Made by a program: the position numbers and the translations under genes. The notes below the pieces were generated by a model. The model was not told the DNA's origin. It saw only the letters and a program-made list of their open reading frames with translations, and did no database searches. From Gautieria morchelliformis (lineage: Eukaryota > Basidiomycota > Agaricomycetes > Gomphales > Gomphaceae), in the NCBI GenBank assembly GCA_015179125.1, contig WHVA01000085.1:186001-250000 (forward strand): a DNA stretch of 64,000 bases. Reading direction: 5' to 3'. Positions 5,836 to 62,919 of this stretch are shown here, piece after piece. Position 1 is the stretch's first letter. Every line of letters begins with the position of its first letter.

Positions 5836-6626
5836 ATGCCGGCTTCGATATCCGATTTGAGCGATGGAGAGGTGGAAGCTGCACATAAAGAAATCGGATT
5901 TCATCAGAGAGAAATCGCTTCGCTCGATGCAAAGGTTGCTTCCCTATTGGGAACAGTCGATTCCCTTCTCAAGCTGAAAGTGGATCATCAGTATCAACTT
6001 CGACTATATGAGGGGATGTTGTCTCTCGCCAGGCGACTTCCGCCTGAGTTATTGGGCCATATTTTCGAGCATTGTGCTTATCTCTACCCGTCAGCACCGC
6101 TTGTGCTCTCACAAGTTTGCGCCTCATGGAGAGCAGCCGCGCATAGCCCACCGCGTATATGGACCTTACTATTTATTGATTGTGCTCGCTCTCGTTCGGT
6201 CTCGAGAGCAGCCCATTGGATATCCATGTCCGGCAGCCATATTCCACTGCATATCGTGCTATTTCCACACGAAATGTCACTATGTGCCGTGATGCGTATT
6301 CTGCTGCCACATGCCCCCCGCTGGAAAACCTTTAGTATTGACGCCGTGCGCCCCTACCACGTTTGTGAAGTTTTGGAGATGATCCAGGCTCAGGAATGTG
6401 CGCCTTCGGAGCTGAATGTCCTCAATTTCACGGTGCGCGAGGAATTGGATCAAATTCTTGACATGCGGGCGACCTTCACCGACAAACGATGTCCTCGACT
6501 TCAAACAATTCGCCTGCAGAGCGAATCACTGTCTTTGGTTTGCTTGCCAAACCATATCGTATCCTTATCATTGGTCATTCCAATCCACTGGCTGCCAACG
6601 GAGATATATTTACAAGTCATCCAACT
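5836..6626 (+). pseudogene. F-box protein gene, 5' part (interrupted by insertion)
   Basis: The frame starts MPASISDLSDGEVEAAH, has a short heptad-like coiled coil (ASLDAKVASLLGTVDSLL), then an F-box, LARRLPPELLGHIFEHC and LVLSQVCASWRAAAHSPPRIW, the arrangement seen in the large basidiomycete F-box families that recruit targets to SCF ubiquitin ligases. The frame runs to 6626 and is then cut by foreign DNA at VIQL. The host sequence resumes at 9467 in the same reading phase if the 3-base ACT present on both sides is counted once. I see no other damage in this half, so the insertion looks recent. An alternative in-frame start lies at 5674. Confidence 0.75.
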
Positions 6627-6701
6627 ACACGAAGGACACCGGAAGCCTTCTTCACGAGACCTGCAGACTGAGGGCATCGAGCCGCTGTGCCAGGTCAGAC
6701 G
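6627..6701. repeat. 75-base inverted repeat, arm 1
   Basis: Exact reverse complement of 7037-7111. It begins at the left edge of the insertion, directly after host sequence, so it may be a remnant of a terminal or hairpin structure of the donor. Confidence 0.9.
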
Positions 6702-6977
6702 TGGTGTCGGATGTCTTCTGCACAACGGGAGCCGGCGTGGTTTCGGAGACATCCATGAACGTCGCGAGTCCCATAATGAGCTTCATCGGAAAAATGCTGG
6801 ATTGCAAGGAAGACCTCCTGACGTTCATGTGGGTTTTGGGGACGGCCCTTCTGGATCCCGTCGTCCGTTCCAAGGGTGTGCTCCTTTACGGACCCGGCGG
6901 CACAGGGAAGTCCACGCTCATTAAGCTGGTTCGTCAATGCTTGGGGGAATGCACAACGGTCGTCTCTTCAAATGCCT

Positions 6978-7037
6978 TGGAAGGCTCTCGTCCCCTTAGC
7001 GACCACGTGAAGATTGCAGCGTGCTCGAACCGAATCC
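6978..7037 (+). repeat. 60-base direct repeat, copy 1
   Basis: Matches 7901-7960 with one difference. The two copies bracket the segment that holds the left inverted arm, as expected for a duplication made when that segment was placed. Confidence 0.85.
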
Positions 7038-7111
7038 GTCTGACCTGGCACAGCGGCTCGATGCCCTCAGTCTGCAGGTCTCGTGAAGAAGGCTTCCGGT
7101 GTCCTTCGTGT
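7037..7111. repeat. 75-base inverted repeat, arm 2
   Basis: Exact reverse complement of 6627-6701. It is followed by an A- and purine-rich leader that precedes the partial copy of the unknown gene. Confidence 0.9.
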
Positions 7112-7142
7112 ACATTAGCGTCTGTGCGTTGTCCTCTTAAAA

Positions 7143-7900
7143 AAGAAAAACGAAAGGGAGGAAGAGAGGGAGAGAGGGACGCAAGGGTACGCGACGGGCT
7201 GTCGCATGAGGGCACCTTCTCTCTTAGCATGTCAAACAGAGCCGTTTTCAAATCCAAGACTGCCGCCTATGACTCCGACTTGGTGTACAACACCTTGACC
7301 AGCGGAAACTTCCTGAAGTTCGAGTTCACGCCCTTGGACAAGAGTAAGTGCAAGCAAAAATACTACGAGTCCCAGGACGCAATATACCTGACGCGTCCGG
7401 TTGCTATATCCAGCATGAAGGATTCAGAGGAGCATGACAACGACACAACATACTACCCGACGAAGAGCATCCTCGTGGACGACTGCTACATTATGCGGAG
7501 AGACGTCGCGGGGTGCACAGACTTTGACGAGCGGAAGATTCCCGTTGGGTTGCCCGCCAAGGTTTTAGACAACCTGATCGACGACATAAAGTCCTCCGTT
7601 GCAGACACGGACACGGTAACGGCAAAGACCTCGTCGTTCGATGACCCCATTGAGCTAGGCTGGGTCCTCGCCAAATGCTACCCGACGGGCGACAGGTTTC
7701 CCGTGAAGATCACCGTCGGCACAAAGACCACAGACTTCGATCTGCAGGGTGCCTTCGAAAGGAACCCCGGCATAAAGAGTTTCCTGTGTGCCCTTCAGAT
7801 CAAGGTGGACCTGAAGTCCGCTGTCGCCATGGAAGGCTCTGGGAAGAGAACCTGCGATGCTGCACGTCTAACGGACTGGGAGATAGAGTTTGTCGTTGAT
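7143..7900 (+). repeat. 758-base inverted repeat, left arm
   Basis: Reverse complement of 8709-9466 with about one visible substitution. It carries the purine-rich leader and most of the unknown gene. Near-identity points to a recent duplication or ongoing gene conversion. Confidence 0.92.
7230..7900 (+). pseudogene. Unknown virus-associated gene, partial copy
   Basis: This copy begins MSNRAVFKSK and is the plus-strand partner of the complete minus-strand gene at 8586-9380. It covers most of that gene and stops at the inner end of the inverted arm. See the complete copy for a description. Confidence 0.6.
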
Positions 7901-7960
7901 TGGAAGGCTCTCGTCCCCTTAGCAACCACGTGAAGATTGCAGCGTGCTCGAACCGAATCC
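7901..7960 (+). repeat. 60-base direct repeat, copy 2
   Basis: Matches 6978-7037 with one difference; it lies within helicase-like sequence and starts directly at the inner end of the left 758-base arm. Confidence 0.85.
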
Positions 7961-8585
7961 TTCTGTGTCCCGAGGCCAACATCGCAGCGGACTTCAACAT
8001 CGCGAACTTCAAGGCGTTGTGTGGCCTGGACATCGTGGCAAGCGAGTACATCCCCATGATAAGCGTGTGCTCCCTGATCCTGGCATGCAATTACCTCCCG
8101 GACCCGAAGAAGCACGCGGAGTGGTACACAACAGCCTTCAGCCGCCGTGCCATCGTGATACCCATGTACTTCAGGGTTGCTGAGCACGTTTCCGCGTTTA
8201 GCAGCGTCATGCTAGAAGACCCGGACAAGATGACTTTCGTAACACAGTGCATCCTCGTGGCGAACAAGTACAACCAGGCGCCGATCTGCACGCGAACGCT
8301 CCTCCTCACGATCATGGGGGAGCTCTTTGCCAAGGTCGCGGACAAGCTCATGTACAACGAGGATGCGAGCAAGGACACCTGCTTAAAGGCATGCGGCTAC
8401 ATCGCCGGTGTCATGGGCATATCCGTGAAGGACTTGGGAGGCCTCGCTCATGCCGTTTCCTCGCAAAGAGTCATGACGTACATGGAGGATGTGCTCGTGA
8501 TCAAGGGCTTGGAGTTTCGCGGGTGATCTTCGCCTCTTTTTAAAAACGAGCAGGAAGGGAAAGCACGATGCAGGAGACGCGCGGC

Positions 8586-9380
8586 CTAAAGCGAGAGCAG
8601 AGACATGTCTGACTGGATGTGAGCGAGGGCATCCTTGTTCTTAGCAGACCCGTATTTGGAGACCCGCCCGCCACACACGGTCTTTGATGCCTTGACTACA
8701 GCGACCTGATCAACGACAAACTCTATCTCCCAGTCCGTTAGACGTGCAGCATCGCAGGTTCTCTTCCCAGAGCCTTCCATGGCGACAGCGGACTTCAGGT
8801 CCACCTTGATCTGAAGGGCACACAGGAAACTCTTTATGCCGGGGTTCCTTTCGAAGGCGCCCTGCAGATCGAAGTCTGTGGTCTTTGTGCCGACGGTGAT
8901 CTTCACGGGAAACCTGTCGCCCGTCGGGTAGCATTTGGCGAGGACCCAGCCTAGCTCAATGGGGTCATCGAACGACGAGGTCTTTGCCGTTACCGTGTCC
9001 GTGTCTGCAACGGAGGACTTTATGTCGTCGATCAGGTTGTCTAAAACCTTGGCGGGCAACCCAACGGGAATCTTCCGCTCGTCAAAGTCTGTGCACCCCG
9101 CGACGTCTCTCCGCATAATGTAGCAGTCGTCCACGAGGATGCTCTTCGTCGGGTAGTATGTTGTGTCGTTGTCATGCTCCTCTGAATCCTTCATGCTGGA
9201 TATAGCAACCGGACGCGTCAGGTATATTGCGTCCTGGGACTCGTAGTATTTTTGCTTGCACTTACTCTTGTCCAAGGGCGTGAACTCGAACTTCAGGAAG
9301 TTTCCGCTGGTCAAGGTGTTGTACACCAAGTCGGAGTCATAGGCGGCAGTCTTGGATTTGAAAACGGCTCTGTTTGACAT
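8586..9380 (-). CDS. Unknown virus-associated protein, 264 residues
   Basis: An intronless 264-residue frame begins MSNRAVFKSKTAAYDSD and ends DMSLLSL. I do not recognise it. It is mixed alpha/beta in character, acidic in the middle (SSMKDSEEHDNDTT), with several cysteines and no signal peptide or membrane segment. It is convergent with the helicase segment, ending 60 bases from it, which suggests both came from the same donor genome. An A/G-rich leader of about 90 bases precedes the start and could be a viral promoter region; that is inference. A structural or DNA-binding role is possible but nothing in the sequence settles it. Confidence 0.6.
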   Translation of the reverse strand: MSNRAVFKSKTAAYDSDLVYNTLTSGNFLKFEFTPLDKSKCKQKYYESQDAIYLTRPVAISSMKDSEEHDNDTTYYPTKSILVDDCYIMRRDVAGCTDFDERKIPVGLPAKVLDNLIDDIKSSVADTDTVTAKTSSFDDPIELGWVLAKCYPTGDRFPVKITVGTKTTDFDLQGAFERNPGIKSFLCALQIKVDLKSAVAMEGSGKRTCDAARLTDWEIEFVVDQVAVVKASKTVCGGRVSKYGSAKNKDALAHIQSDMSLLSL

Positions 9381-9466
9381 GCTAAGAGAGAAGGTGCCCT
9401 CATGCGACAGCCCGTCGCGTACCCTTGCGTCCCTCTCTCCCTCTCTTCCTCCCTTTCGTTTTTCTT
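8709..9466 (-). repeat. 758-base inverted repeat, right arm
   Basis: Reverse complement of 7143-7900. Its outer end is the right border of the insertion, directly next to the ACT that resumes the host gene. Confidence 0.92.
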
Positions 9467-10283
9467 ACTCCGCGGTCTTTTAGAGCTCTGTACCTTTACC
9501 TTGGAGTTCCCTGACGATAGCTTCCCCCGAGGACATCGATCATCTGCTGGAGATGCCATGCTGGTCATGCCTGAGCTTCAAGCAGTTACATTGACTGGGC
9601 ATCACCTTCTTTTTGATATTCTGTCCCATCTAACCCTCCCTTCCCTCCGCCATTTTCGTCTCCGAGAAACCGGCAAATCGTCACAGACTCCGACTATAGG
9701 GAACTGCTTCCTTGAAATGATAGCACGTTCTTTGCCTCCCGTTGAAACTCTCGAATTGCACGGCATCGATGTGACTGACAGTGATTTTATTCGCTGTTTT
9801 ATGTATCTACCTACGTTGGTGGAACTACTTCTGCACGACTCCGAAATCTCTAACGAGGTGTTCCGCCAACTCATCTCCCCATCTCTCGGCGACGATACCT
9901 CCAACTCATTGTTCTGTCCCCAGCTCAAACGTCTAGACTTACGATGGTGCTCGCAGCTCTCCGGCAAAGTCCTGGTTGAACTGGTCGAAAGACGTCTGAC
10001 ATCATCCCAAACACATTCCATATCCGAGGTGGTTGTCATCAATTGCTCGTTCGTTCGTGAAGATGACGTTTTGGCTCTTGCGGCTATGACCCACTGTAGA
10101 CTAAAAAATCGCAACGAGGATTTCTGTTGTGAGCGTGTATATTACCGTATGGCGTCACCATATAACAACATCTTAGATCATCGTGGCTGCTGCACGAACA
10201 GTCGTTACAGACATCGTTTCATGCTCCGTCACGGGGGAGATGTGCGACAAGAGCTCAAGGGAGGATGCAGACTAGAGTCATGA
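9467..10283 (+). pseudogene. F-box protein gene, 3' part with leucine-rich repeats
   Basis: Host sequence resumes as LLELCTFTLEFPDDSFP and continues with leucine-rich repeat-like units: MPELQAVTLTGHHLL, LPSLRHFRLRETG, LPPVETLELHGIDVTD, LPTLVELLLHDSEIS, CPQLKRLDLRWCSQLSG. These would form the substrate-recognition part of the F-box protein whose first half is at 5836-6626. The frame ends at 10283 after RLES. The two halves together would be about 535 residues, typical for this family. Because the insertion lies between them, the locus should not encode the full protein here; another nucleus of a dikaryon could carry the uninterrupted allele. Confidence 0.75.
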
Positions 10284-29451: not shown

Positions 29452-31931
29452 CTACAATACCCACGCGGCCACGCCACCACAGACACTGCAACTAGGGGTC
29501 GAAGGGGCCATCCGGCGTGGGGTTGGTGAGGCCGGGGCCGGCGCCGACGATGACACTACCGTTCGTGGCAGGGGGGTTGGTGGTAGGTGCGTTGTTGGCG
29601 GGGGGTCGGTGGTCGGTGCGTTGTTGGCGGGGGGGTCGGTGGTCGGTGCGTTGTTGGCGGGGGGGTCGGTGGTCGGTGCGTTGTTGGCGGGGGAGTCGGC
29701 GGTAGGAGCGGTGTTGGCGGGGGAGTCGGTGGTAGGTGCGTTGTTGGCGGGGGGGTTGGTGGTAGGTGCGTTGTTGGCGGGGGGGTCGGTGGTCGGTGCG
29801 TTGTTGGCGGGGGAGTCGGCGGTAGGAGCGGTGTTGGCGGGGGAGTCGGTGGTAGGTGCGTTGTTGGCGGGGGTGTCAGTGGTAGGGGCGTTAGTGAAAG
29901 GGGCGTTGGTGGCGGGTGCGCTGATCCTTCGGCTCCCGCTAGAGTTACCCAATCCGATCAAACCGCCGTTGCTGTTGCGTCCACCATTGAGGATACGGTT
30001 GCCGGTCAGGAGACCGCGGTTGTTTACAGGACCGTCGGGCGCGAAAGCGTTGGCGTCTCCGCCGCCGCCGCCGCCGCCAGAGTTACCCAATCCGATCAAA
30101 CCGCCGTTGCTGTTGCGTCCACCATTGAGGATACGGTTGCCGGTCAGGAGACCGCGGTTGTTGACGGGACCGTCGGGCGCGAAAGCGTTGGCGTCTCCGC
30201 CGCCGCCGCCGCCGCCAGAGTTACCCAATCCGATCAAACCGCCGTTGCTGTTGCGTCCACCATTGAGGATACGGTTGCCGGTCAGGAGACCGCGGTTGTT
30301 GACTGGACCGTCGGGCGCGAAAGCGTTGGCGTCTCCGCCGCCGCCGCCGCCGCCAGAGTTACCCAATCCGATCAAACCGCCGTTGCTGTTGCGTCCACCA
30401 TTGAGGATACGGTTGCCGGTCAAAAGACCGCGGTTGTTGACGGGACCGTCGGGCGCGAAAACGTTGTCGTCTCCGCCGCCGCCGCCACCGCCAGAGTTAC
30501 CCAATCCGATCAAACCGCCGTTGCTGTTGCGTCCACCATTGAGGATACGGTTGCCGGTCAGGAGACCGCGGTTGTTGACGGGACCGTCGGGCGCGAAAGC
30601 GTTGGCGTCTCCGCCGCCGCCGCCGCCGCCAGAGTTACCCAATCCGATCAAACCGCCGTTGCTGTTGCGTCCACCATTGAGGATACGGTTGCCGGTCAGG
30701 AGACCGCGGTTGTTTACAGGACCGTCGGGCACGAAAGCGTTGGCGTCTCCGCCGCCGCCGCCACCGCCAGAGTTACCCAATCCGATCAAACCGCCGTTGC
30801 TGTTGCGTCCACCATTGAGGATACGGTTGCCGGTCAGGAGACCGCGGTTGTTGACGGGACCGTCGGGCGCGAAAGCGTTGGTGTCTGCGCCGTCGCCGCC
30901 GCCGGAGTTACCAATTCCTATCAAACCGCCGTTGCTGTTGCGTCCACCATTGAGGATATTGTTGCCGTCCAGGAGACCGTTGTTATTTGTGACACTGCGG
31001 AGTCCCGGAATGATGCCAAGACCTCCCAAAAGGCCGCCATTACCACTCTGCTGTCCACCGCTCTGCTGTCCACCGCTCTGCTGTCCACCGCTCTGCTCGC
31101 CGGTAGAACTCTGGGCATTGAACCCGCCCTCGTTGAACCCACCTCGCTGTCCGCTGAAGCTCTGATACATGTTGTCATCCGGGTAGTGGTCCTCTTGGGC
31201 GATGTTCTCGCCGTAGGTCTGGCCGTATCCATCACCAAAGTCACGCGGTGAGAGATGCGAGGTGTGGTTGAACTGGCCGCGGTGGTGCCCTCCGCGGAAC
31301 TCGCCCTGACGCTGCCCGCGGAACTCACCCTGACGCTGCCCGCGGAATTCGCCCTGACGCTGCCCGCGGAACTCACCCTGACGCTGCCCGGGGAACTCGT
31401 CCTGACGCTGCCCGGGGAACTCCCCCTGACGCTGCCCGGGGAACTCGCCCTGACGCTGCCCGGGGAACTCGTCCTGACGCTCCCCGCGGAACTCGCCCTG
31501 GTCCTCCCCGCGAAACTCGTCCTGACGCTCACCGCGGAACTCGCCCTGGTCCTCCCCGCGGAACCCGTCTTGGCGCCCCCCGCGGAACTCGCCCTCACCG
31601 AACTCGTCCTGACGCTGCCTGGGTGCGAGCTGTCCGCTCGGGCTGAGTATGCTCACGCCGCGGTTGCCACCTTGTGCGAACTGCGCTCCGTCAAAGAAGC
31701 GGCCACGAGCGCAGTCGTTCGTCTGCAGAAATCGTCAGCATATAATAACAGCGTGCTCGCCGACAACGGCAACGTACGCCGTCGATGCAGGCATTGGGCC
31801 CCTGCAGAGGAATAGTGAGCAGACATGCGAGCTCGACGGACAGAACGACGTACAGGATCCTGAGGAGTCGGTGCGCCGAACGCGACGTCGAGCAGTGCAA
31901 GAGCGTAAAGGGACACAGCAAAGGAACGCAT
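29452..31931 (-). CDS. Secreted Gly/Asn-rich repetitive protein
   Basis: Three exons. The first encodes a signal peptide (MRSFAVSLYALALLDVAFGA) and PTPQDP; the second, GPNACIDG; the third starts TNDCARGRFFDGAQFAQGGN and then is almost entirely repeats. Its order is: about fourteen 8-residue units (EFRGQRQG and EFPGQRQD variants), four QQSGG units, seven 46-residue Gly/Asn units (LLTGNRILNGGRNSNGGLIG, then LGNSGGGGGGGDANAFAPDG), and about ten 10-residue Pro/Ala/Thr units (PANNAPTTDS). Such composition suggests an extracellular matrix, wall or adhesive-type protein; function unknown. Near the end the last Pro/Ala/Thr unit has six instead of seven C in a row (near 29600). With seven, the frame would end at 29492 (VIVGAGPGLTNPTPDGPFDP); as given it ends at 29452 after AAWVL. 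Confidence 0.7.
29582..29900. repeat. 30-base minisatellite (about 10 copies)
   Basis: G-rich 30-base units (ggtgcgttgttggcgggggg core) encode PANNAPTTDS-type decapeptides on the minus strand. Units differ by a few bases. Repeats of this kind change in copy number easily. Confidence 0.9.
29941..30906. repeat. 138-base minisatellite, seven copies
   Basis: Seven tandem units begin at 29941, 30079, 30217, 30355, 30493, 30631 and 30769, each starting agagttacccaatccgat and ending in a (gcc)n run. They are nearly identical; an eighth unit, more diverged, follows at 30907. Each encodes a 46-residue Gly/Asn block. Confidence 0.95.
31287..31610. repeat. 24-base minisatellite (EFRGQRQG units)
   Basis: Tandem 24-base units (ctgacgctgcccgcggaact core) encode about fourteen octapeptides rich in Glu, Phe, Arg, Gly and Gln on the minus strand. 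Confidence 0.88.
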
Positions 31932-52838: not shown

Positions 52839-53531
52839 TGTTACGTATCGAGATTTCCACTAAGTCGGAACTGGAAAGGACAGCGGCTTCAACTTATAGG
52901 TTGCGCCCCCAATGAACTATCGTCCTAGGTATTTCGGAAATGAGCCGGAAGTCGGAAAGTACTGGACCAGCTGTTTGGTCGGAACTTGAGTCGGAACTGA
53001 GGCGGAAGGCGGAAGACGGAAGGCTGAGAGAGAGACTGAGATCTTGCTAGACTCGCTGTGCTAAGAACAGGAGATGGAGCGAAGGAAATCAGGTATCGAA
53101 GGTGATTATCTGATTGCAGAATAACAGACATACATGAGGGGTTTTTATACAAAACGCAGAGCAACAAGTAATGGTGTTGTACTAAGCAAATTCCGGAGGA
53201 AGCGGAAGTCGAGTACAATGTGTGGGAACTAACTAATTGGGAACAATGGGACTACAAGGGGGGTTCAGGGTAAGGTAGAACAATGGCAAAGAACAAGGGG
53301 TCGGGAAAAACATATCTGACAACGAACTACAAGGGTGACCGTATATATGGTTTTGATGGATGGCGAGGTGGGTCCGGTGGGTCCGAGTAATAGAGTCGAA
53401 AGAACAAGGGAAATGTACAAGGGGCGGAATGTCGGAAATGTCGGAGGGGCGGAACGTGTGGCGGAACTATTGGAGAGGCGGAATGTATGGCGGAACTGAG
53501 GGTCGGAAATCGGAAATGAACGGTCGTAACA
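52839..53531 (-). repeat. LTR of the minus-strand chromovirus, left copy (fossil)
   Basis: 693 bases with TGTTAC...GTAACA ends, apparently identical to 60777-61469. It is flanked on both sides by TATGT (52834-52838 and 53532-53536), a 5-base target duplication. Confidence 0.9.
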
Positions 53532-54979
53532 TATGTACATCACTCCGTTCGCCGATCGCTCTCTCCCTATTCGACGGAAAGCCAGCCACTGCTGGTTTCA
53601 TTCACGAATACCTAGATACTAGTCTCACCTTCAGCGACTCCTCTTCGCAGGACGTTTCGCTACTTGTCACAAAGTTACACCCTTCGGCTGCAATCGTTCT
53701 TGGGCTTCCGTGGCTTCGCTCTACGAAACGCACCATCAATTGGGGCTCTCTCTCAATTACCTTTCCTTCCAGCACCGGTTTCATGCTCCCACGTATGACA
53801 GTCGCCATGGCCTGTATGATGATTTCCCCGCTGGCTATCTTCAACAGTATCCCCAAACTCCACACTGCATCGATGACATCGCCACTGCCAGTTCCTGGTT
53901 CACACCCGTCCCCGCCATCCTTGGGTTACATCCTGAACACGGCGATTGGACCACTCTCCTATGTCCTGGTCCTTTCACCGGACATCACTTCTTCGCCCAC
54001 TCCGATTCCGAATCTTTCTGGTTACGAACAGACGTTCGACGTGGATGGCGAACCCTTGCTTCTCTCAACCAAGCCGATCAAGGATCGCTCCTCTGAGTCC
54101 TCTATATCACTTCCTAACAATCTCATTCGTCCATTTTCAGTCACGAAAAACCGATTATAGAAACCGAACCTATCCGACCAAAAACAGAGCCCGTTCCGCG
54201 TCATTCTCGTCCCTGTACACCATGTACAGAATTACTGATCGATGACCACCTCCCATTCCATTCTTCACCTCCTGATCCACCTCCGACGAGGAGGGTAACG
54301 CCACATATAAGCCTAATCAGCGCAGCCGCCTTTGAACTAATCATGAAACTTGGCGAAGAAGAAACCTTCATGTTAAACATGCACCCTTCCATCCCTGAGC
54401 CGAGTTCGCTTTGCGCTGTAGGCAACACACCAGCCCCGACCACACTCCTCCACGAAAACCCTTTACCGAAGGACGAGTTGGAAATGTTCAGGGCTGTGGT
54501 ACCAGAGGAGTACCACGACTTCGTCGATATCTTCTCGCGTGCTAAAGCCAAAGACCTGCCCCCACATCGCCCTTATGACCACACCATTGAAATCGAGAAT
54601 GATGGCACACCACCTCACGGCCCAATATACCCACTCTTGAACAGCGAGTTAGAGGCTCTCCGCGAATATCTCGAAGAAATGCTTGGCAAGGGATTTATCC
54701 ACTCCTCCCAATCACCCGGTGGCGCCCCTGTTGTCTTTGCGAAAAAGAAGGATGGCACACTGCGAATGTGTGTGGACTATCAAGGGCTAAATCGTATCAC
54801 GCGAAAGAACAAGTACCTTATCCCACTGATTCCAAGCCTTATTGACCAACTCAAAAGTGCAAACGTCTATACCAAATTCGACCTTCGCGCCGGGTCAATA
54901 ATGTTCGGATCGCCTCTGGCTAAGAGTAGAAGACAGCCTTCCGAACTCAATATGGGTCCTTCGAATATCTCATCATGCT
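53532..54979 (+). repeat. Duplicated block of the older element, copy A (fossil)
   Basis: Nearly identical to 61470-62919 and, together with the LTR before it, part of a 2.14-kb direct duplication (52,839-54,979 versus 60,777-62,919). It contains protease-end and reverse-transcriptase-start sequence of the older element. Confidence 0.9.
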
Positions 54980-60776: not shown

Positions 60777-61469
60777 TGTTACGTATCGAGATTTCCACTA
60801 AGTCGGAACTGGAAAGGACAGCGGCTTCAACTTATAGGTTGCGCCCCCAATGAACTATCGTCCTAGGTATTTCGGAAATGAGCCGGAAGTCGGAAAGTAC
60901 TGGACCAGCTGTTTGGTCGGAACTTGAGTCGGAACTGAGGCGGAAGGCGGAAGACGGAAGGCTGAGAGAGAGACTGAGATCTTGCTAGACTCGCTGTGCT
61001 AAGAACAGGAGATGGAGCGAAGGAAATCAGGTATCGAAGGTGATTATCTGATTGCAGAATAACAGACATACATGAGGGGTTTTTATACAAAACGCAGAGC
61101 AACAAGTAATGGTGTTGTACTAAGCAAATTCCGGAGGAAGCGGAAGTCGAGTACAATGTGTGGGAACTAACTAATTGGGAACAATGGGACTACAAGGGGG
61201 GTTCAGGGTAAGGTAGAACAATGGCAAAGAACAAGGGGTCGGGAAAAACATATCTGACAACGAACTACAAGGGTGACCGTATATATGGTTTTGATGGATG
61301 GCGAGGTGGGTCCGGTGGGTCCGAGTAATAGAGTCGAAAGAACAAGGGAAATGTACAAGGGGCGGAATGTCGGAAATGTCGGAGGGGCGGAACGTGTGGC
61401 GGAACTATTGGAGAGGCGGAATGTATGGCGGAACTGAGGGTCGGAAATCGGAAATGAACGGTCGTAACA
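60777..61469 (-). repeat. LTR of the minus-strand chromovirus, right copy (fossil)
   Basis: 693 bases matching the left copy. The right flank is again TATGT. Because gag starts just to its left, this is the 5' LTR of the minus-strand element. Confidence 0.9.
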
Positions 61470-62919
61470 TATGTACATCACTCCGTTCGCCGATCGCTCT
61501 CTCCCTATTCGACGGAAAGCCAGCCACTGCTGGTTTCATTCACGAATACCTAGATACTAGTCTCACCTTCAGCGACTCCTCTTCGCAGGACGTTTCGCTA
61601 CTTGTCACAAAGTTACACCCTTCGGCTGCAATCGTTCTTGGGCTTCCGTGGCTTCGCTCTACGAAACGCACCATCAATTGGGGCTCTCTCTCAATTACCT
61701 TTCCTTCCAGCACCGGTTTCATGCTCCCACGTATGACAGTCGCCATGGCCTGTATGATGATTTCCCCGCTGGCTATCTTCAACAGTATCCCCAAACTCCA
61801 CACTGCATCGATGACATCGCCACTGCCAGTTCCTGGTTCACACCCGTCCCCGCCATCCTTGGGTTACATCCTGAACACGGCGATTGGACCACTCTCCTAT
61901 GTCCTGGTCCTTTCACCGGACATCACTTCTTCGCCCACTCCGATTCCGAATCTTTCTGGTTACGAACAGACGTTCGACGTGGATGGCGAACCCTTGCTTC
62001 TCTCAACCAAGCCGATCAAGGATCGCTCCTCTGAGTCCTCTATATCACTTCCTAACAATCTCATTCGTCCATTTTCAGTCACGAAAAAACCGATTATAGA
62101 AACCGAACCTATCCGACCAAAAACAGAGCCCGTTCCGCGTCATTCTCGTCCCTGTACACCATGTACAGAATTACTGATCGATGACCACCTCCCATTCCAT
62201 TCTTCACCTCCTGATCCACCTCCGACGAGGAGGGTAACGCCACATATAAGCCTAATCAGCGCAGCCGCCTTTGAACTAATCATGAAACTTGGCGAAGAAG
62301 AAACCTTCATGTTAAACATGCACCCTTCCATCCCTGAGCCGAGTTCGCTTTGCGCTGTAGGCAACACACCAGCCCCGACCACACTCCTCCACGAAAACCC
62401 TTTACCGAAGGACGAGTTGGAAATGTTCAGGGCTGTGGTACCAGAGGAGTACCACGACTTCGTCGATATCTTCTCGCGTGCTAAAGCCAAAGACCTGCCC
62501 CCACATCGCCCTTATGACCACACCATTGAAATCGAGAATGATGGCACACCACCTCACGGCCCAATATACCCACTCTTGAACAGCGAGTTAGAGGCTCTCC
62601 GCGAATATCTCGAAGAAATGCTTGGCAAGGGATTTATCCACTCCTCCCAATCACCCGGTGGCGCCCCTGTTGTCTTTGCGAAAAAGAAGGATGGCACACT
62701 GCGAATGTGTGTGGACTATCAAGGGCTAAATCGTATCACGCGAAAGAACAAGTACCTTATCCCACTGATTCCAAGCCTTATTGACCAACTCAAAAGTGCA
62801 AACGTCTATACCAAATTCGACCTTCGCGCCGGGTTCAATAATGTTCGGATCGCCTCTGGCTAAGAGTAGAAGACAGCCTTCCGAACTCAATATGGGTCCT
62901 TCGAATATCTCATCATGCT
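61470..62919 (+). repeat. Duplicated block of the older element, copy B (fossil)
   Basis: The second copy of the block at 53532-54979; here it continues into the remaining reverse transcriptase and RNase H sequence. Confidence 0.9.

Follow-up and report, generated by a model that had tools for sequence, protein, structure and literature searches.

Stem-loop pieces of a probable DNA virus interrupting an F-box gene, with related fragments elsewhere in the same fungal genome

The window, that is, the whole stretch of 64,000 nucleotides analysed here, carries ordinary genes, including PGAP1, a protein kinase and quinolinate phosphoribosyltransferase, along with retroelements recognizable by reverse transcriptase and integrase zinc-binding domains. 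A 2143-nt direct repeat (52839-54979 and 60777-62919), 99.9% identical and about 8 kb apart, has reverse transcriptase ORFs between and beside its copies and resembles either a young LTR retroelement or the outcome of a recent duplication; a tandem array lies at 29560-30988 within long overlapping ORFs, its units measuring about 138 and 60 nt. An F-box-like gene in the same window is split by a foreign block with the following features.

5836..6626, plus strand: 5' half of the F-box-like gene (Pfam F-box-like, 8.4e-08), joining the 3' half in frame
6624..6626, no strand: ACT at the left border, seen in the sequence, with a second ACT at 9467-9469
6627..6757, plus strand: segment a, the 3' portion of a virus gene encoded on the minus strand (C198 homologue L013:8175-8306, 86%)
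6758..7042, plus strand: segment b, Walker-A part of an SF3 helicase (GPGGTGKST), 90% to L013:4943-5227
7037..7147, minus strand: segment c, inverted copy of the 3' region of segment a, forming a 76-nt perfect stem with 6626-6701
7143..7900, plus strand: segment d, first of the two large-stem arms, matching 8709-9466 in inverted orientation with 1 mismatch in 758
7900..8526, plus strand: segment e1, C-terminal part of an SF3 helicase (LILACNYLPD, AFSRRAIVIP), by sequence comparison
8538..8545, no strand: TTTTAAAA, a terminator-like signal between convergent virus genes, enriched in virus DNA
8589..9380, minus strand: intact 264-aa virus gene (C608 homologue 86-87% at the amino acid level, dN/dS 0.16-0.18)
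8709..9466, minus strand: second arm of the large stem, its outer end at the host border
9467..10283, plus strand: 3' half of the F-box gene, joining the 5' half in frame

The preliminary description had placed a foreign block at 6627-9466 within the F-box gene, and its limits, motifs and inverted arms were all confirmed. The host halves are undecayed and in the same phase, as had been stated: with the block taken out they form a single 535-aa frame. Interruption of the F-box gene is the one effect of the block that can be read from the sequence, and no mobility function was recognized within 6627-9466. The ACT triplets at the two borders are indeed present and represent either the proposed 3-base duplication or a chance match. 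The F-box 5' half has no second DNA-level copy in the assembly that could serve as an allelic empty site. Paralogues of the F-box gene at four loci of the same genome (L043, L044, L045 and L046) were compared by protein alignment. With L044 (C153), one alignment covers residues 68-440 (25% identity, E 2e-20) and crosses the junction at 263/264, whereas the alignment with L045 falls into two parts; for L043 and L046, matches are significant in the 5' half only.

Comparison with relatives elsewhere in the genome resolves the block into a mosaic of five virus segments, a to e, whose joins show overlaps of about 0-6 bases. Segment e spans 7900-9466 and comprises the helicase C-terminal part followed by the convergent, intact 264-aa gene. 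The large arms are almost identical, as previously noted, and a repeat search of the window extends them to 773 nt at 99%. A second inverted pair, absent from the first reading, joins 6626-6701 and 7037-7112 (76 nt, 100%), and a helicase piece is present twice as a direct repeat (6977-7042 and 7900-7965; 66 nt, 97%). Because the block is a mosaic of joined segments, the window helicase is broken rather than a single gene: its Walker-A half and C-terminal half lie in different ORFs, and both match overlapping stretches of the helicase at another locus, C198. Segment b matched AAA profiles and the phage primase phrog_1156 (2.3e-09). Segment e1, 90% identical to L013:5162-5599 and 88% to L012:4388-4713 with dN/dS of 0.11-0.14, had on its own no match in Pfam or NCBIfam. 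The gene that had been called unrecognized is the 264-aa gene, which likewise lacks a match in Pfam, PHROG or NCBIfam; the predicted structure of its protein has a pLDDT of 35. BLASTP shows no relation between the two virus proteins with lengths near 260 aa.

Searching the assembly (122 Mb, 1113 contigs) at the DNA and protein levels revealed related DNA at no fewer than 12 loci, the window included, a count that is a lower bound as only the best-scoring candidates were evaluated by the search. Besides the window, these are C948:31-36 kb, C198:137-154 kb, C608, C270, C1048, C149, C371, C349, C342, C47 and C1103. The two C198 pieces, which have 330 identical nt in common, in inverted order, were counted as one locus, probably split by host repeats. 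Weaker matches at C152, C162 and C160, a match to C524 at 30% identity, and short matches (72-85 nt) at C486, C693 and C207, possibly a host repeat, were left out of the count. Among the ten better-related loci, DNA identity is roughly 80-99% where they overlap; it is 70-75% for C342, an older virus locus torn apart by insertions, and C47 and C1103 match at the protein level only, with about 26-39% identity. Where compared, the loci begin and end at different positions of the virus. Since diverged copies exist at other loci of the genome, the block is more than a chance assemblage, and related pieces at no fewer than these 12 loci suggest that a DNA virus has infected the fungus repeatedly in the past. 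Long insertions with helicase ORFs extend over about 19 kb in C342:42-80 kb (L027-L029, L020), some of whose ORFs we take to be Helitron-like.

The most informative genes come from C198. One 231-aa piece of its DNA polymerase fits the family B profile PF00136 at 8.8e-18, compared with 0.25 for the organellar/viral PF03175; the gene is interrupted by a many-copy host repeat (about 490 nt at L013 6970-7466, 99% to many copies). The C198 helicase ORF matches PHROG primase phrog_1156 (2.2e-10) and TIGR01613 (1.5e-10; 40.5 bits, the curated cut-off being 108.7), and the similarity to the D5/P4-type profile PF19263 also scores under its curated cut-off. These profile matches identify a D5-type helicase domain; a primase domain was not seen. 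The ORF is a fusion, the first part of which is followed by other sequence at C1048, at C371 and in the second C198 piece. Twelve matches to it were found in the same genome. The helicase part is matched in the window, C198 and C270 and, distantly, in C47 and C1103, which also carry other virus-like pieces; the remaining matches are limited to the fused first 93 residues. A host gene family was considered as the source of the helicase, and within the assembly the helicase-part matches occurred only at loci with virus-like pieces.

A C608 ORF has a TFIIS-like zinc ribbon (4.8e-04, just under the curated cut-off) and motifs, noted by eye, that are presumably those of a KxDG-type, capping-type nucleotidyltransferase. 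Zinc-ribbon cysteines can be aligned between this ORF and its C1103 relative, and when both are combined into a profile, RNA-polymerase zinc-ribbon subunits are matched weakly (best E 0.017). A 332-aa virus gene (L016 5999-6997, L014 7789-8787) has a RING-like zinc finger pattern with a weak Pfam score of 0.029; we had also taken motifs seen by eye in a gene of L014/L016 for those of a uracil-DNA-glycosylase, a reading we do not claim, as PDB and family searches gave it no support. In C47, a 585-aa ORF (L051 1216-2970) without Pfam support contains GSTVNAVLDG...PNDLDIV, which we assume to be a nucleotidyltransferase-like motif, and adjoins a distant possible relative, at 20% identity, of a C198 virus gene.

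No integrase appeared among the Pfam matches of 25 virus-region ORFs scanned, and no capsid or packaging gene was recognized, the sole capsid search, for the double jelly-roll major capsid protein (PF04451), being one without a positive control: it gave no match in this genome, and control genomes were likewise without a match. Viral contigs scanned with the 484-aa C198 ORF, a PolB piece, the RING-like alignment and a helicase piece yielded no relative, within a reach of close relatives; a short PolB piece matched 12 loci there at 37-47%, which we read as a generic polymerase motif. Bacterial and archaeal genomes scanned with the 484-aa C198 ORF gave no match.

Comparison of the loci with one another indicates how they diverged. 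In all 22 between-locus comparisons, covering eight genes, dN/dS lies at 0.05-0.32, a set from which rows shorter than 60 aa or wholly identical were dropped and three within-locus rows (0.21-0.84) left out, and in which not all comparisons are independent, some using both arms of one locus, four contain 1-2 stops, one (the RING-like gene against C342) has dS saturated, and the value of 0.32 rests on two changes. These ratios imply that the strains diverged under purifying selection before capture, and hence that divergence took place in a replicating virus, followed by several captures. In 30,285 nt of virus DNA the octamer TTTTAAAA is present 15 times, where 0.14 would be expected, compared with once in 117,915 nt of host DNA. 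By ORF positions, the 15 copies represent five distinct intergenic places, each of which follows stop codons. Four of the five lie between convergent genes and one between tandem genes; such a placement suggests that TTTTAAAA acts as a transcription terminator of virus genes.

Eight of the 12 counted loci contain inverted duplications, with arms of 194-1349 nt that are at least 98% identical and spacers of 3 to 2279 nt. Outside the window, the arms measure 984 nt with 3 mismatches in C198, 556 with 2 in C608, 194 with 3 in C270 and 323 with 4 in C349, and are free of mismatches in C948:31 kb (1349 nt), C149 (656 nt) and C371 (510 nt). No such arms were found in C1048, C342 (analysed as separate pieces), C47 and C1103. 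The same self-comparison applied to 129,207 nt of host DNA, from the window and the locus flanks, revealed no inverted pair that reaches 100 nt at 95%, and only weaker inverted pairs of 64-93% are present there. In one set of virus stretches compared, direct repeats were limited to the window's 66-nt pair and one of 112 nt in C342 that flanks an apparent inserted retroelement. Because random ligation should yield direct and inverted repeats equally, fold-back copying or head-to-head joining is favoured for the eight loci. C1103 does not fit their bias: it has seven direct and four inverted repeats of 40-116 nt, so that inversion is not universal. In C1103:236001-243000 (L052), these form a fine patchwork in both directions around capping-like, polymerase-like and helicase-like pieces, and the locus is far more fragmented than the others.

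Two loci can be compared with empty copies of their host sites. In C149, the 4214-bp insert separates bases 466|467, which adjoin each other in the empty copy L021, and no host base is lost or duplicated; the comparison with L022 gives the same result, and against a third copy, L023, 13 nt are unaligned. At C608, about 320 bp of host DNA are inverted beside the insert relative to the copy L024, with 2-3 nt lost per end, and the copy L025 has the same order as L024. Both sites therefore indicate break repair by end joining, not the action of an integrase, and from them we infer that the window block, too, was captured at a chromosome break. The C198 virus DNA contains copies of host repeats, which places it in the chromosome.

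Taken together, the block most probably records the recent capture of broken DNA from a replicating dsDNA virus during break repair inside the F-box gene, a reading in which we have high confidence. The ends of the virus DNA would fold back and be copied, giving stem-loop fragments, or, alternatively, two molecules from one infection may have joined head to head; end joining would then seal these pieces, with other fragments, into the chromosome break. Fold-back copying before capture is our preferred explanation of the inverted duplications. As in an endogenous viral element, host DNA, in the form of the F-box halves, flanks the block on both sides, with PolB and helicase profiles in linked relatives, and replication of the source outside the chromosome is indicated indirectly by the between-locus dN/dS. 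A young insertion into the F-box gene, a virus-like origin and a little-described source, all suggested in the preliminary description, are thus supported; the block itself is read as scrambled debris of a larger DNA virus rather than as a self-inserted element.

D5-type helicases occur in Polinton-like viruses, virophages and transposons, and this, together with the ACT repeated at the window borders, would suit a self-inserting element of one of these kinds. Protein-primed family B polymerases are, however, a Polinton feature, and the C198 polymerase fits PF00136 rather than PF03175; an integrase, terminal repeats and a constant target duplication characterize Polintons, Polinton-like viruses and virophages, and such a combination was not found in the scanned ORFs, at C149, which lacks a target duplication, at C608, with its inverted host stretch, or in the window, where 3 nt or chance is involved. 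The differing start and stop positions of the loci speak against self-insertion as well, and we regard it, including the suggested Polinton-like or virophage identity, as extremely unlikely. The least probable of the alternatives is an assembly artefact, either chimeric reads formed by fold-back or virus contamination wrongly joined to host sequence: inverted duplications are a known type of read artefact, but 129 kb of host DNA contain no comparable pair, virus DNA joins the host at clean empty sites of host repeats, and host repeat copies sit inside the C198 virus DNA.

Nuclear fragments of a cytoplasmic linear plasmid of the yeast VLE type would probably look alike after break-repair capture. 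VLEs carry a virus-like capping enzyme, and their captured fragments (NUPAVs) are known (PMC4431711). The same source gives more than 75% A/T for three yeast VLEs, against 45.5% in the 30,285 nt considered here, and the polymerase again fits PF00136, not PF03175, which makes this origin very unlikely. A further proposal is compatible with capture and concerns what the pieces might do: kept as heritable antiviral RNA memory, they would be transcribed into hairpins that are diced and guide virus silencing. The frequency of stem-loops among the loci, with mismatch-free arms in three of the eight, and the siRNAs described for inverted-repeat plant pararetroviruses in a review (PMC10377300) would agree with it; against it, four of the 12 loci lack such arms, fold-back synthesis accounts for the shape without selection, and identical arms may reflect youth alone. 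We consider RNA memory unlikely, and see a similarly small chance that an undescribed DNA-virus lineage repeatedly infects the fungus with hairpin samples of its genome kept as inherited RNAi templates.

Returning to capture during break repair, if the host is a basidiomycete, the 12 or more loci would preserve a record of this kind of virus from mushrooms, with polymerase, helicase and transcription-type genes and strain diversity, and they provide sequence for finding the living virus. The stem-loop shape makes testable both the capture route, by fold-back copying and end joining, and the role of hairpin fragments as fungal RNA memory, which, if true, would be a fungal DNA-virus counterpart to the inherited RNA immunity that has been suggested for plant pararetroviruses. 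Among the literature matches listed (open-licence, no preprints), none reports DNA-virus elements in a mushroom, and a text search for 'Mycodnoviridae' gave no match.

Several known systems share parts of this picture. The helicase resembles D5/P4-type SF3 primase-helicases (TIGR01613, phrog_1156, PF19263) in profile similarity, below the cut-offs for TIGR01613 and PF19263, but here only the helicase part is present and the window copy is split in two. Yeast NUPAVs, as described in PMC4431711, are likewise repeated nuclear captures of extrachromosomal virus-like DNA, although their source is A/T-rich cytoplasmic linear plasmids. The rearranged endogenous caulimovirids of plants are also scrambled, inverted virus fragments for which PMC10377300 mentions integration by break repair; unlike the source proposed here, they are pararetroviruses, and siRNA is reported for them there, whereas an RNA role here is hypothetical. 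The virus appears to have nucleocytovirus-like replication genes, a family B polymerase, which is found in Nucleocytoviricota and is not unique to that phylum, and a D5/P4-type helicase, short of proof of membership. In fungi, a 1.5-Mb endogenous nucleocytovirus region is described from Rhizophagus irregularis (PMC10640383), and polymerase fossils from basal fungi (Gong et al. 2020, as cited by PMC10640383). As far as that source describes them, such regions share with our loci DNA-virus genes, a family B polymerase, a fungal-type chromosome and an inferred recent infection; our loci differ in being numerous and scrambled, each roughly 0.5-10 kb long and most of them stem-loops, in a host taken for a basidiomycete, and are not assignable to Asfarviridae or any family.
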